Source: an uncultured Pseudomonadota bacterium
GTDB lineage: Bacteria > Pseudomonadota > Gammaproteobacteria > Xanthomonadales > Wenzhouxiangellaceae
Direction: 5' to 3'
Assembly: GCA_937138395.1 (NCBI GenBank)
Contig: CAKZPB010000018.1
Span: 1-34,426, forward strand
DNA length: 34,426 bases
Part shown: piece after piece, positions 2 to 5,857 of the stretch
Layout of the letters: each line of letters opens with the position of its first letter
Numbering within the stretch: the first letter of the stretch is position 1
Notes under the pieces: generated by a model
Told to the model about the DNA's origin: nothing
Database searches by the model: none
Seen by the model: the letters and a program-made list of their open reading frames with translations, nothing else
Translations under genes and position numbers: made by a program

Positions 2-760
2 ACTGACAGCACCATTGGCAGCAGCAATTCGGCCTACAGCGCCAATTTTTGCGGCACCTCGATGGCCTCACCCATTGTGTCGGGCAGCGTGGCGCTGTTC
101 GTCGAACAGTATCGCAATGATTTCGGCATCGACCCCAGTCCGGCCCTGGTCAAGGCGCGCTTCACGCCGGTCGCGATGGACCTGGTTGGCAACGACGATG
201 CCGACGACAACGCGCTCGGCCACCGACCCGACCGCAAGCAGGGCTGGGGCCGGCTGGATCTCGATGCCGTCATCAACCCAGCGGTATCGATTGAGTTCAT
301 CGATCAGACAGAAATCTTCGACGACACGGGCGACTTCTGGCAGACCGACTGGATTGTGGATGACCCTGAGCAGCCCATCCGCTTGATGCTGGCCTGGACC
401 GACGCTCCCGGTCCCGGAGCCGGAGGCACTACACCGGCATGGGTTAACAACCTGGATCTGATCGTTCGCATTGGCGACGACATCTACTATGGCAACAATA
501 TCAGTCAGGCTGATGGATTCTCCGAGGCCAACGGCACACCCGACGAGATCAACAATCTGGAGGGCGTCATGCTGAGCCCGGAACAACAACAGCAGGGTAT
601 GCTGAGCATTGAAGTCCTGGCTTCAAACCTGGCAGGAGACGGTTTGGACCCCTGGACCCCCGCCCCGGGTTCGACCCTTCAGGATTTTGCCCTGGTTTGC
701 TACAACTGTTCAACAAAAATCGAGGTGTTCAAAGATGGTTTCGAGACGCCAGAGAAATAA
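2..760 (+). CDS. Subtilisin-like (S8) secreted serine protease, C-terminal part
   Basis: The reading frame is open from the left edge, so the N-terminus, signal peptide and the catalytic Asp and His lie outside the window. What remains begins just before the S8 catalytic-serine motif GTSMASP (Ser codon at 59-61), followed by the helix that normally follows it (IVSGSVALFVEQY). About 60 residues on, GWGRLDLDAVI is the usual end of an S8 catalytic domain. The remaining roughly 150 residues look like a beta-rich domain (LMLAWTDAPG, WVNNLDLIV), as found C-terminal to many bacterial subtilases. The protein ends with VFKDGFETPEK, a motif shared with the next two secreted proteins. The role is presumably degradation of extracellular protein. 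The family call is firm; substrate and the function of the tail are unknown. Confidence 0.9.
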   Translation, partial: TDSTIGSSNSAYSANFCGTSMASPIVSGSVALFVEQYRNDFGIDPSPALVKARFTPVAMDLVGNDDADDNALGHRPDRKQGWGRLDLDAVINPAVSIEFIDQTEIFDDTGDFWQTDWIVDDPEQPIRLMLAWTDAPGPGAGGTTPAWVNNLDLIVRIGDDIYYGNNISQADGFSEANGTPDEINNLEGVMLSPEQQQQGMLSIEVLASNLAGDGLDPWTPAPGSTLQDFALVCYNCSTKIEVFKDGFETPEK

Positions 761-1012: not shown

Positions 1013-3739
1013 ATGCAATTCAATTCGCCTTGCGCTAGTTTTCGTTACAAGCCAAAACATCATCTGTTGTTCCTGCTGATTCTCGGTCTGTGTCTTTCGG
1101 GACAAGCATTCGCCAAGGATCGTCCACCGCCACTAAGCTGGGACGGCAACCAGAAATCATCGATTGAATCGGTCGAAACCCTCGATTTCGGCCGTTTGGA
1201 CGTCGAGGCGATTGCTGCGGAAGACCAACTGAACGAAGCGTTCGGCGCACCACCACGCTTTGCCATTCCGAATGCGGTCTCGATTACGCCGCTGCTGCAC
1301 GGTCACTGGGCTGAGGCTGGCGATCACAGCATCTGGCGCTACCGGGTTGCGGCCGAAGTCGCAACCTCGCTGAATTTCGGTTTCGATCAGGTCTACATGC
1401 CAGAGGGCGCGCAGCTGTTTATTTACACCGTGGACGCCGCCGAACGGGGAGACATGGACCTCTATGAAGTGCTGGGTCCCTACAGCACCGAAATCAACGA
1501 AGTTCACCGCCAGTTCTGGTCGCCGATTATCCAGGGCAAGGATGTTGTGATCGAACTCAATGTTCCGACGCGCGTCCGCGACCTGGTCTCGCTCGAGCTG
1601 ACCCAGGTCAACCAGGGCTATCGTGGTTTTGGTGAAGCGTTGGCAGGCTACGTGCATACCGATCAGCTATTTGGCGAAGGCAAGCAAAGCCAGAGTGACT
1701 GCGCCAAGGATGGCGCCGGCGGCCGTTCCGGTTCCTGCAATATGGATGTCGCCTGCCTGGCAGAAGATGATCCATGGAACGATCCGCGACGGTCTGTGGG
1801 CGCCTATACACGCGGCGGAACGGATATTTGCACAGGCTCGCTGGTCAACAACACTGCAAATGACCGCAGAATGCTGTTTGCCACCGCAACGCACTGCGGC
1901 AACCTGCCCGGAAACGTACCCTCGATTGTCGTGTATTGGAACTATGAATGGCCGACGTGCCGTACGCCCGGCGCATCGGAAGGCACCCAGGTTGGGCCAC
2001 GACCCGACACGATCAACAGCGGCGCCTCTATTGTTGCTCAGACGGATAACCCGTTTTCCAATAATCCGGCGTTGACCTGTTCAGCACCCGGGAATTGTTC
2101 GGACTGGACCCTGTTGGAACTGGACGATCCAGCTGATCCCGAATTCGATCTGTACTGGGCAGGCTGGGACCGACGCAGCACGCCCGCCGCCTGTTCACAG
2201 ATCGGCACCGACGGCTCCACCGAAGGGCTATGCGCCACGATCCACCATCCCAGCGTGGATGAAAAGCGCATTACTTTTGTTGCCGATGACTTCTTCGTTG
2301 GCAATATTGCCGGTGCTCAGGGCGTTCATTGGACTGCCCTGTGGCATCAGGACCCTCCGATTGTGGCCAACATTCCGGAGCCGCAGCCTGCTTCGATTCC
2401 ACCGCAAGTCACTGAACCCGGCTCGTCCGGATCGCCGTTGTATACCTCGGAGCAGCGTCTGATCGGTGTACTAAGTGGCGGTGCGTCTTTTTGCGGCGCA
2501 TCACCTGGCCAATTGAATGACGAGTACGGCGGCCTGTTTCATGCCTGGGATGGCCTCGGTACCGTGGATACCCGCATGCGGGATCACCTTGATCCGCTGG
2601 GCGGCAATCCGGAATTCATCAACGGCATTGGGGCTGCGCCATTTCAATTGGCTGCTGACCCGGGTTCGGCAACGGCTTGTGCGACCGACGGCAGCGTTGA
2701 TTTCACAATCAGCGTCACACCGGATCCTGGATTTTCCGATCCAGTCAACTTGGGCGCCAGTGGTGAACCGGCTGGTTCAACCGCTAACTTTTCGGTGAAT
2801 CCGGTCAATCCCCCGGGTGACTCGGTGCTGACCATTGGCAGCCTAGGTTCAGCGACCGAAGGCAACTACAGCATCCAGGTCACCGGCACCAGTGGCACCG
2901 AGGAGAACAGCACCAGCATTCCGTTCGCGTTGGCCGCAGCTGCGCCGGTTGGTGCCAATCTGACTTCACCGGCTGATGACGAGACCGGCGTATCAACCTC
3001 GGCGACGCTGAGCTGGGATGCGATTGCAAACGCCGTGAATTATCAAGTTGAAGTGGCCGATAACCCGGGGTTTGTTGACCCGGTGTTCGACCAGACCACA
3101 ACGGCGACAGAAATCAACGTGCCGGGCTTGAATGTGCTGACCGAATACTACTGGCGCGTCACTGCCGACAATGCCTGCGGTACAGGCGCACAGTCAGCGA
3201 CCTTCAGCTTTACCACAGCCAACCAGTTCTGCTCGGCCCCGGGTACCCCGCTACTGGATCCGGACAACGGCGGCGGCAGTGCATTCGATAGCATCGTCAT
3301 TCCCCAAGAAGGTGCCACCGGTTCAGTCGTTGTTGACGTCAATCTGGCGCATTCCTATGTGGGGGATACACGACTCGAGCTGACTCATGTTGATTCCGAC
3401 ACATCAATTGTCTTATATGACCGTCCAGGCCGCATTGATGATGGCTTTGGTTGCAGTGGAGACGGTATCACGGCAACGTTTTCTGATAATGCCAGCGTAC
3501 CCGCAGAAGAAGAATGCACGTCTGACGATGGCCTGGTGGGTGAATTCCTGCCGATCGATCCGATGAGCACGTTCAACAATTTAGCCAGCAATGCGGAATG
3601 GCGTCTGGAGTTCTACGATGACGAGCCGACCGGCACAGACGAAGGCGAACTGACCAGCTGGTGCATCAGCGTTGAAGCCTTGCCGGAAGAAATCTTCGAC
3701 GATGGTTTTGAAACGCTGGTCGTGCCGCTGACTCGCTGA
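1013..3739 (+). CDS. Secreted lysyl-endopeptidase-like S1 serine protease with FN3-like and P-domain-like modules
   Basis: This 908-residue exported protease starts with a basic region and hydrophobic signal segment ending around AFA (residues 32-34). Residues 35-230 look like a propeptide. The S1 catalytic triad can be read as His294 (ATATHCG), Asp364 (SDWTLLEL) and Ser472 (PGSSGSPLY). The many cysteines and the overall pattern resemble Achromobacter lysyl endopeptidase. Roughly residues 640-735 form a fibronectin-III-like domain (LSWDAIANAVNYQVEVAD). Residues about 740-890 resemble the proprotein-convertase P domain (DTRLELTHVDSDTSIVLYD, WRLEFYDDEPTGTDEGEL). The C-terminus carries IFDDGFE nine residues from the end, the tail shared with its neighbours. 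A promoter-like sequence precedes it and a strong terminator follows. Lys specificity is inference from family resemblance. Confidence 0.85.
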   Translation: MQFNSPCASFRYKPKHHLLFLLILGLCLSGQAFAKDRPPPLSWDGNQKSSIESVETLDFGRLDVEAIAAEDQLNEAFGAPPRFAIPNAVSITPLLHGHWAEAGDHSIWRYRVAAEVATSLNFGFDQVYMPEGAQLFIYTVDAAERGDMDLYEVLGPYSTEINEVHRQFWSPIIQGKDVVIELNVPTRVRDLVSLELTQVNQGYRGFGEALAGYVHTDQLFGEGKQSQSDCAKDGAGGRSGSCNMDVACLAEDDPWNDPRRSVGAYTRGGTDICTGSLVNNTANDRRMLFATATHCGNLPGNVPSIVVYWNYEWPTCRTPGASEGTQVGPRPDTINSGASIVAQTDNPFSNNPALTCSAPGNCSDWTLLELDDPADPEFDLYWAGWDRRSTPAACSQIGTDGSTEGLCATIHHPSVDEKRITFVADDFFVGNIAGAQGVHWTALWHQDPPIVANIPEPQPASIPPQVTEPGSSGSPLYTSEQRLIGVLSGGASFCGASPGQLNDEYGGLFHAWDGLGTVDTRMRDHLDPLGGNPEFINGIGAAPFQLAADPGSATACATDGSVDFTISVTPDPGFSDPVNLGASGEPAGSTANFSVNPVNPPGDSVLTIGSLGSATEGNYSIQVTGTSGTEENSTSIPFALAAAAPVGANLTSPADDETGVSTSATLSWDAIANAVNYQVEVADNPGFVDPVFDQTTTATEINVPGLNVLTEYYWRVTADNACGTGAQSATFSFTTANQFCSAPGTPLLDPDNGGGSAFDSIVIPQEGATGSVVVDVNLAHSYVGDTRLELTHVDSDTSIVLYDRPGRIDDGFGCSGDGITATFSDNASVPAEEECTSDDGLVGEFLPIDPMSTFNNLASNAEWRLEFYDDEPTGTDEGELTSWCISVEALPEEIFDDGFETLVVPLTR

Positions 3740-4018: not shown

Positions 4019-5857
4019 TCAGAAAGTCTGTTCAAAGCCATCGGCAAAAATATCCTCCAGACGTTCCGGACCCAGAAGATCGAGGACAACGGGCTCGCTC
4101 CCTCCGGTTGGGCCAAGCTCGATCTCGACTTGGGTTGCAACCGGTGGGCGATCGGACTCGAAGCCAAAGGTGTAGGCCTGGCCCCAAAGCAGCGGGTTCG
4201 AGGCTGGAGAAGAAAACACTTGCGCGCTGCCAGTCGTTGCCGAGCCCCACTCGTTGGTTTCATCCTGGTCCGGATCATGGAAGTACCAGCTGTCGACCTC
4301 GGCTGAGGTCAGGATTGAAAACTGTTCAATACCATGGTCGACATCGTAGTTCTTGACGACGTAGGTGTACCGCCAGCGCTCCGGTGCAATTTCCTCGACC
4401 TTGGCCAGCACCTGCAGGTGTCCAACCGGGTCATCCTGGAACACGACGTTCATTTCACCCGATTCCGGTGTGCCGCCGGGTGCAATCCAGGCGTCCAGTG
4501 CGCGGCCCTGGGCAAAAGCTCCCAGGCTGTATTGCCAGCTGCTGCCGCCCTGGAAATTTGGGGTCAAGGGGTGGTAGCCCATGCCGTTGAAGATATTGAT
4601 GTCGTCGCGAATCACGTACCACGATTCGAACAGATATTCAGCGCCAGGCGTCTGCAGGTCTTCGACCCAGACCTTCATGCGGTTTTCTCCAGGCGCGGAA
4701 TCGGTATCCTGCACGCCATTTCCGCCCGGCGGCATCTGGTCAAAAAAAGAACCGAACGATTCAAAGATTCCAGTGCGCGGATTGATCTCGCTGCGTGGAC
4801 CAATATCACCGGGGCTGTCGTTATTTCCAACGCCATACACGTCTTCGCAACCTGGCCACAGGATATGACCCGAAGCCCCCGGTATGCCGCCGTCACCGCA
4901 GTTGATCGTGCAGCTGACGTTGATGGTAAAAAAGGCATACTTCGCGCCAGAGACACCCACCTGCTCCAGGCGGCCCTCACTGACACGGTACAAGTTCCAG
5001 ACCAGAAACGGGTGCTGATCATTGTTATAGGGTGGGAACGGGCCGGTGAACTTGGTGTACCAGGGCACATCGGCTGCTCGTAAATCAGGATTGTTACGCA
5101 AGCGAGCCGACGGCGTCAGGATTTCAAAGGTCTTGCCGTCTTCAACGACCGTACCGCGGTCCGACACGGTCCCCATCGCGATCAATTCCACGTCAACATC
5201 GAAGCCATCAGTAGGCCACTGAGGACGATCGGCACAAGCATCACCGCGCTGGGTCAGATTGGCACCGGCGGGAATATGCAAAAGCGCATCCAGGGCCAAT
5301 TCACCAACAAACATTCCGCCCCATTCGGTAGCGCCCAACCGGTCGGCCAGCGCTTGTGTCATCCGCACATCCATGCGCTCCATGACCAGCTGGTTTTTTT
5401 CGAGCAATGTGTAGACATGCACATGGCTGGCTGAAAACAATGGGTTGCCGCTTCCGTCAAGCAACAGCAATCCATGGATATCGTCCGGGTTGCGCTGGAT
5501 AATCAATCGATCAATAGTGACGATATGCCCATCACGGCGAAGCTGAAGATCAGCCGCCAAAACCAGACGGCCCTCCAGGAACTGCTCGAAATTTCCTGCT
5601 GGGGCATGAAACTCCAACGCACCCAGGTTCAAGTCCGAGAATCGAACACGACTCCCATCCGCACGCTTTTGACCGCCCACCGAAAACTCGATATCAGCCA
5701 AATTCAAGCTGTCCGGATACACATGCAGTTCTGCACTGGATGACCACGCCGACCAGATTTCAGTTGAATTCTTGATTTGAGGCGCATCGGTCTTTGCGCA
5801 GGCCATACCTGCGGAAAAAAGTACGATTGTGGCGAACAGTATGCGGGGCAGCGTCAT
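4019..5857 (-). CDS. Secreted protein of unknown function with C-terminal DGFE motif
   Basis: I do not recognise the family. The ATG at 5857 is chosen because it opens a clear signal peptide (basic-free short start, hydrophobic ILFATIVLFSAGMACA, then KTDAP); an upstream in-frame ATG at 5932 would add 25 residues before the signal. The mature protein is about 590 residues, probably beta-rich. It has many aromatic and Gly/Pro/Asp residues and a central cysteine-containing stretch (VSCTINCGDGG, ILWPGCEDV). No transmembrane segment, lipobox or enzyme motif is visible. It ends with IFADGFEQTF, matching the tails of the two secreted proteases it faces. It lies 83 bases downstream of the Kef-type gene, has a weak promoter-like sequence of its own and is followed by a hairpin terminator. 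Confidence 0.8.
   Translation of the reverse strand: MTLPRILFATIVLFSAGMACAKTDAPQIKNSTEIWSAWSSSAELHVYPDSLNLADIEFSVGGQKRADGSRVRFSDLNLGALEFHAPAGNFEQFLEGRLVLAADLQLRRDGHIVTIDRLIIQRNPDDIHGLLLLDGSGNPLFSASHVHVYTLLEKNQLVMERMDVRMTQALADRLGATEWGGMFVGELALDALLHIPAGANLTQRGDACADRPQWPTDGFDVDVELIAMGTVSDRGTVVEDGKTFEILTPSARLRNNPDLRAADVPWYTKFTGPFPPYNNDQHPFLVWNLYRVSEGRLEQVGVSGAKYAFFTINVSCTINCGDGGIPGASGHILWPGCEDVYGVGNNDSPGDIGPRSEINPRTGIFESFGSFFDQMPPGGNGVQDTDSAPGENRMKVWVEDLQTPGAEYLFESWYVIRDDINIFNGMGYHPLTPNFQGGSSWQYSLGAFAQGRALDAWIAPGGTPESGEMNVVFQDDPVGHLQVLAKVEEIAPERWRYTYVVKNYDVDHGIEQFSILTSAEVDSWYFHDPDQDETNEWGSATTGSAQVFSSPASNPLLWGQAYTFGFESDRPPVATQVEIELGPTGGSEPVVLDLLGPERLEDIFADGFEQTF

Follow-up and report, generated by a model that had tools for sequence, protein, structure and literature searches.

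The motif [LIV]F-x-DGFE at the C-terminal end of exported proteins may be a linear targeting tag for one class of the type II secretion system (T2SS), docked by GspC or by the secretin; we judge this proposal to have equal chances of standing or falling. In this view, the tagged proteins of the order Lysobacterales would first be exported by the Sec pathway and fold, and the flexible tail would then mark them for export through the outer membrane by what we call the class A T2SS, that is, a system with a canonical GspD and with a GspC bearing a C-terminal PDZ domain. Docking would most likely take place on the secretin or on the periplasmic portion of GspC, whose PDZ domain is the first candidate. 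The need for the tag in transport is inferred. The recognition of substrates by the T2SS is a long-standing open question: the conserved signal for the outer-membrane step is unidentified (PMC11981180), common linear sequences are apparently absent from the substrates (PMC7949064) and there is no universal linear secretion signal (PMC12369372). If the proposal is true, a tag that occurs tens of times in a genome and has natural dialects makes T2SS recognition directly testable through grafts and swaps, and the secretomes of a large environmental order become readable from sequence.

The stretch of DNA that was analysed (the window, 34,426 nucleotides) is one whole contig of a 2.84 Mb genome assembled in 142 contigs, and the three tagged tails that the preliminary description had reported in it are all present. 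A subtilase (S8) protease on the plus strand, truncated at its 5′ end by the contig start (positions 2–760; Pfam PF00082, 25.6 bits at a cut-off of 21.8), ends with the tag VFKDGFE (725–745) and the last four residues TPEK between the motif E and the stop (725–757 with the tail). A secreted trypsin-like (S1) protease on the same strand (1013–3739), which has a signal peptide and fn3-like and P-domain-like regions (the Pfam Trypsin, fn3 and P_proprotein matches are each weak and below the curated cut-off), carries IFDDGFE at 3692–3712, followed by the eight residues TLVVPLTR and the stop (3692–3736 with the tail). This motif had been placed at 3691–3711, a claim that held in part, being off by one. 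The third carrier, encoded on the minus strand (4019–5857), is a secreted protein that has 612 aa when counted from the ATG used, belongs to no known family and has the signal peptide MTLPRILFATIVLFSAGMACA; its tag IFADGFE (4031–4051) is followed by the three residues QTF (4022–4051 with the tail) and by the stop, which extends to 4019. NCBIfam gave no match to this protein up to E=1 and Pfam none up to E=0.01.

Over the whole genome, the DNA pattern for F-x-D-G-F-E occurs at 33 sites, compared with 0 for the reversed-pattern control. All 33 were read, and 32 of them conform to [LIVF]F-x-DGFE, the first residue being L in 20, I in 6, V in 5 and F in 1. The motif E is followed by 0–9 residues at 31 sites and by 30 residues at one (L047), while the remaining one is a chance site in an ORF of 53 aa. 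A relaxed pattern gives 78 sites in the same genome against 7 in its control; 24 distinct sites were read out of the 45 extra ones, yielding a single clear C-terminal tag (LFADDFETE, L061), four motifs near the stop of ORFs of 9–71 aa and 19 located elsewhere. No residue behind the motif E is conserved, the last residue of the tagged proteins varies (mostly P, D, E or N), and the motif stands at the very C-terminal end in 3 of the 32 tags of this genome and in 12 of 30 tails read in the order. The five fixed residues are written in mixed synonymous codons, with 23 different codon sets across the 32 tags, which argues that the peptide is kept and that the tails are not copied DNA. The tag and its C-terminal location are firmly established.

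The carriers of the tag are Sec-exported proteins unrelated to each other: proteases, a nuclease, and proteins with choice-of-anchor, DUF11, Calx-beta and FG-GAP domains. The export was called by a simple, permissive signal-peptide heuristic and not by a trained predictor. The N-terminus is truncated in 4 of the 32 carriers, and for 26 of the 28 intact ones the start with the highest score gives a signal peptide; in L036 a signal peptide can be recognised by eye when a different start is taken, and L053 has a hydrophobic N-terminus without a clean start codon. The criterion of a T2SS substrate, a cleavable Sec or Tat signal peptide, is thus met, with this one case unclear. A looser automatic version of the heuristic found signal peptides in 25 of 27 tagged ORFs versus 81 of 210 untagged neighbouring ORFs. 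An NCBIfam scan of 30 of the 33 proteins (L040, L041 and L052 were left out) identified, over the curated cut-offs, choice-of-anchor B in one carrier (454 bits, domain end at residue 431 of 455), choice-of-anchor D in two, choice-of-anchor Q in three, an ExeM/NucH nuclease (domain end at 868 of 879) and a few others. The Pfam matches over cut-off in the 20 carriers scanned include S8, M14, Calx-beta, DUF11, FG-GAP and M6, among others.

It could be argued that the motif merely forms the final strand of a single C-terminal fold that the carriers have in common, and many carriers do have beta-rich terminal domains. This reading was rejected and can be considered practically ruled out. The domains that precede the tail differ from carrier to carrier (choice-of-anchor B, D and Q, Calx-beta, DUF11, nuclease, FG-GAP), and several domain models stop 11–24 residues short of the C-terminus. 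In the AlphaFold2 model of the choice-of-anchor B protein, computed with 19 orthologues (mean pLDDT 81.8), residues 447–455 have a pLDDT below 50, with the last block at 32, and lie outside the folded domain; the tail of this protein is therefore predicted to be a flexible end and not a strand. The structure prediction covers this one carrier only. Three tests had been named beforehand in the preliminary description, and all were favourable: the sites are far above chance genome-wide, the carriers are exported as far as the heuristic can tell, and the varied preceding domains together with the predicted disordered tail of one carrier speak against the motif being the last strand of one fold.

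In the order as a whole, the hydrophobic-preceded pattern was present in 102 of 151 genomes, and the tag counts, which range from 0 to 70, are bimodal by genus. A scan of the taxonomic class (274 genomes drawn) gave more than 2 sites in 0 of 271 genomes outside the order, which is near control level, and the sites read were C-terminal in 29 of 32 cases in the first-listed genomes of the order versus 1 of 29 outside it. The count scans cover this class and no other classes or phyla. Among the named records whose long ORFs bear such tails are Marinicella, Dokdonella and Chiayiivirga, all of them Lysobacterales, and the placement of the window in the same order is inferred from this; the scan of the named collection provides names only, without counts. 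Tails were also obtained from records titled Alcanivoracaceae, Burkholderiales, Sedimenticola and Oceanospirillales (L137, L214, L174, L176 and L206), which may be either misnamed bins or real transfers. In a partial survey of the open-access literature we found no report of this tag or of any GFE-type CTERM.

The tag exists in lineage-specific dialects. TIGR04312 was matched over cut-off in 43 of the 151 genomes of the order, and most of the orthologues read that have an intact C-terminus carry related but differing tails. In the choice-of-anchor B orthologues the tail is DGFE in genus g1, DRFE (or IYGDRFAP) in g2 and IFIDGLD, IFIDGFD or IFESGFE in g29; NGFE and NSFE tails occur in orthologues from other families of the order. 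In nine orthologues, five from family f8 (L276, L280, L282, L294 and L298) and four from g29 of family f9 (L299, L300, L302 and L303), an additional domain of some 130 residues stands in place of the tail, and a few more end otherwise. A tailed paralogue is likewise encoded in the genomes of the four g29 proteins. When the R form ([NSDG]R) was scanned for, there were 1–81 sites in the 15 g2 genomes (at least 26 in 9 of them), 38 sites in g6 and 0–3 in g1. The sister-genus genome G037 has 81 R-form and 0 DGFE sites, against 3 and 32, respectively, in our genome; of its 30 R-form loci that were read, 25 are C-terminal by a strict rule, two end short ORFs and three are internal. That dozens of proteins of one genus have undergone the same one-residue change suggests one factor acting in trans as the reader, and the tag is probably read in trans.

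The dialects also bear on the possibility that the tag is a neutral or structural end-cap that has no reader and was spread by the shuffling of gene ends. The modular architecture of many carriers and the occurrence of some tandem tags could be cited in favour of this explanation. We nevertheless regard it as highly improbable, because the peptide is conserved over mixed codons, the one-residue change is coordinated genus-wide and the tag is nearly absent from whole genera.

One line of support for a class A T2SS as the route of the tagged proteins is the common distribution of system and tag. GspD was found over cut-off in 144 of the 151 genomes, which makes the T2SS in general uninformative as a partner, and only the class A split fits. 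In a tree and in the pairwise identities of 17 GspD sequences, class A stands apart from class B at 23–30% identity, while a Xanthomonas-like GspD copy has 36–42% identity to class A. The split was first noticed in the lengths of the GspD matches and was not fixed beforehand, and the threshold for a tag-positive genome (at least 5 sites of either form) was chosen after the counts had been seen. A class A GspD profile, built from 12 sequences of which two came from tag-poor genomes, gave a clean bimodal result over the 151 genomes. Class A GspD and the tag occurred together in 77 genomes, class A GspD alone in 5, the tag alone in 6 and neither in 63 (Fisher p 6e-29, phylogeny not corrected for). 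Two genomes (G109 and G128) owe their class A status to fragments, and the Xanthomonas-like copy (40%) of seven genomes of family f2 was not taken as class A. By genus majority, the corresponding figures, in the same order, are 29, 3, 2 and 30. Within single families they are 4, 0, 0 and 20 in f12, 1, 0, 0 and 23 in f2, 1, 2, 2 and 19 in f8, and 19, 2, 2 and 1 in f9. Judged by the family labels alone, the association comes down to some three or four separate gains or losses. The profiling covered no genes other than GspD, rhombosortase and class A GspD, with class A GspC searched for in 22 chosen genomes, which leaves room for some further gene of like distribution.

The exceptions deserve to be listed. 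Among the six genomes with the tag only, the search of the 22 chosen genomes found class A GspC in G123; in G118 a class A-like GspD fragment lies at a contig edge and class A GspC is missing; neither class A GspD nor class A GspC is present in G048 or G059, whose completeness, however, is 90% and 77%, respectively. The remaining two, G063 (12 sites) and G097 (7 sites), are nearly complete and lack both proteins, and at least three of the loci read in G063 are real tags. Conversely, five class A genomes have almost no tags (G064, G143, G082, G084 and G127). A search for other dialects in G064 and G082, with G063 alongside, in which 30 loci were fetched for 48 sites, revealed one C-terminal variant in a long ORF of G064 (IFASGFD) and nothing convincing among the loci fetched from G082. 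These exceptions tell against a strict one-to-one link between the tag and class A. Export by the class A T2SS remains the best single reading of the data, at odds that are even or slightly better.

A second explanation assigns to the tag a role after or beside the T2SS, in retention at the cell surface or as a site cut or modified by an undiscovered enzyme, in the manner of GlyGly-CTERM. GlyGly-CTERM and its rhombosortase resemble our case in that the signal is C-terminal on many unrelated exported proteins and a link to T2SS users has been published. The tag, however, lacks the Gly/Ser-rich motif, the membrane helix and the basic end of GlyGly-CTERM, and neither criterion for this system (motif, helix and basic end; a cognate rhombosortase) is met. 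Rhombosortase (TIGR03902) was found over cut-off in 12 of the 151 genomes (G049, G013, G147, G097, G042, G056, G132, G122, G111, G107, G137 and G053), with tag counts of 0–7, only one of the 12 having at least 5 tags and none having class A GspD. No TIGR03902 match over cut-off was present in our genome, and most of the tag-rich genomes gave only weak, general rhomboid-level matches. Rhombosortase as the partner of the tag was therefore rejected by its distribution, with the caveat that four class A, tag-positive genomes (G028, G113, G148 and G150) have matches just below the cut-off (74–83 bits, cut-off 84). The GlyGly-CTERM and the DGFE tag look as if they might replace each other across genomes.

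Other sorting signals fit no better. PEP-CTERM, LPXTG and MYXO-CTERM are likewise short, recognisable C-terminal addresses on varied exported proteins. These tags are tripartite and include a membrane helix. Unlike them, the proteins studied here mostly end 0–9 residues past the motif. The PEP-CTERM criterion (PEP motif, helix and basic end) is not met, there being no room for a helix in 31 of the 33 cases, nor is that of LPXTG, whose motif and helix are absent from the tails. No CTERM model matched over the tail in the 30 proteins scanned with NCBIfam, and the known CTERM families were rejected on this ground; the tail of L037 is overlapped by a mid-profile match, below cut-off, to a model of rhombosortase-dependent M36 proteins. 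The C-terminal domain of T9SS cargo in Bacteroidota also combines a Sec signal peptide with a C-terminal signal for passage through the outer membrane, but the T9SS signals are folded Ig-like domains, whereas the tag is a heptapeptide predicted to be disordered in the one carrier modelled. No T9SS tail model was among the NCBIfam matches of the 30 proteins, and the criterion for T9SS cargo is not met. The DGFE motif would be a new kind of sorting tag at the C-terminus, one that has no membrane helix.

The role after or beside the T2SS draws support from the fact that some carriers belong to families with anchored relatives (choice-of-anchor B, D and Q; ExeM/NucH). Relatives in the choice-of-anchor families carry anchoring signals at the same C-terminal position. 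In addition, the GlyGly-CTERM proteins of Vibrio are published to use the T2SS and to stay on the surface, and rhombosortase and class A GspD were never found together over cut-off (12 genomes). Against it stand the absence from the tails of a membrane helix, a basic end or any conserved residue past the E, and the lack of a dedicated enzyme. On balance we lean against this explanation without dismissing it. The preliminary description had read the motif as a tag for sorting, secretion or processing that belongs to none of PEP-CTERM, GlyGly-CTERM and LPXTG, which is supported, transport and processing being unproven, and had seen no processing enzyme, which held as well: none was found here either, and rhombosortase is unsuited. 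The size of the family, its dialects and the co-distribution with one T2SS class were beyond its reach.

Returning to the targeting reading, the PDZ domain of GspC may possibly be the reader of the tag. This role is inferred; what is observed is the presence of the domain in class A GspC. In our genome the class A gspC, gspD and gspE genes lie together on contig C78, which meets the criterion of a cognate T2SS, and GspC consists of an HR domain and a PDZ domain. T2SSC and PDZ_2 matches, as expected of the T2SS clamp protein, were obtained in 31 of 31 class A GspC sequences read; at a 32nd locus (G134, g6, R form), on a short contig, GspC was not found. The class A GspC profile matches the solved OutC, PulC and GspC chains. 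Four class B loci have T2SSM_b, one of them also with T2SSC below cut-off and without PDZ, which agrees with the report of a single helix in XpsC (PMC11981180). In Vibrio, the PDZ domain of EpsC is required for the secretion of one T2SS substrate, VesB, in which the Ig fold carries information (PMC12369372), and a loop of PelI interacts with GspC and GspD (PMC7949064). Both cases resemble our proposal in having a PDZ-bearing GspC, exported folded enzymes and a limited exposed element that is informative. Their signals, however, are structural (an Ig fold; loop 3 of Fn3) and not a linear sequence common to many substrates. Most tags lack a free hydrophobic C-terminus, the criterion of a classical PDZ ligand, so a non-classical mode of PDZ binding would be needed. 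Other orders are also known to have PDZ-bearing T2SSs, and no such tag was found there.

A comparison of six GspC sequences from g2 (R form) with seven from g1, g3 and g4 revealed 30 columns that share no residue. Five PDZ columns (residues 223, 241, 243, 258 and 269 of our GspC) are acidic in 4–6 of the six g2 sequences and in at most 1 of the seven others, residues 241 and 243 being located at the start of the helix 243–251; PDZ residue 273 turns basic in g2. The mean net charge of the PDZ domain is −1.0 in g2, +0.8 in g1 and +2.0 in g3 and g4, and the HR domain shifts oppositely. The acidic shift fits the arginine in the tag, but it is a single event in one clade. A bolder version of the proposal, which we can offer only as a possibility, is that of a transplantable linear T2SS signal read by the GspC PDZ domain, with the tag and its reader co-changing per genus (DGFE, DRFE, NGFE, DGLD).

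In the stretch of contig C78 that was read (L358, 9655–19754), no gspF or later gsp gene follows gspCDE. The genes that do follow are rpoE, rseA-like, rseC-like and degP-like genes and lepA. The proximity of a DegP-like protease with PDZ domains to gspCDE in our genome may be taken in support of a further explanation, in which the tag is a handle for periplasmic quality control by a PDZ chaperone or protease of the DegP or Prc type. We consider this very unlikely. PDZ cross-hits in longer ORFs (of unverified identity) occur in tag-negative genomes as well, and a general protease of this kind would therefore not account for where the tag is found; moreover, a factor of general function would have to evolve in step with the dialects.

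Two minor features of the motif may be added. In some proteins, tandem tags or tag-like motifs are found on one C-terminus (L089, L092 and L146 in genomes of the order and L393 in G037; examples are IFLDGFEGDVIFKNGYD, LIFKNGFESDIIFKDGFE and ILQDRFETPTDDIFRDRFELQ). A like motif is also seen just behind the apparent signal peptide, where the mature protein begins, in L410 and L428 of G063 and in L121 outside the order (examples are AWAGPIEDLIFKGGFE and TGTVPVFKDSFE), and its position is therefore perhaps not strictly C-terminal.
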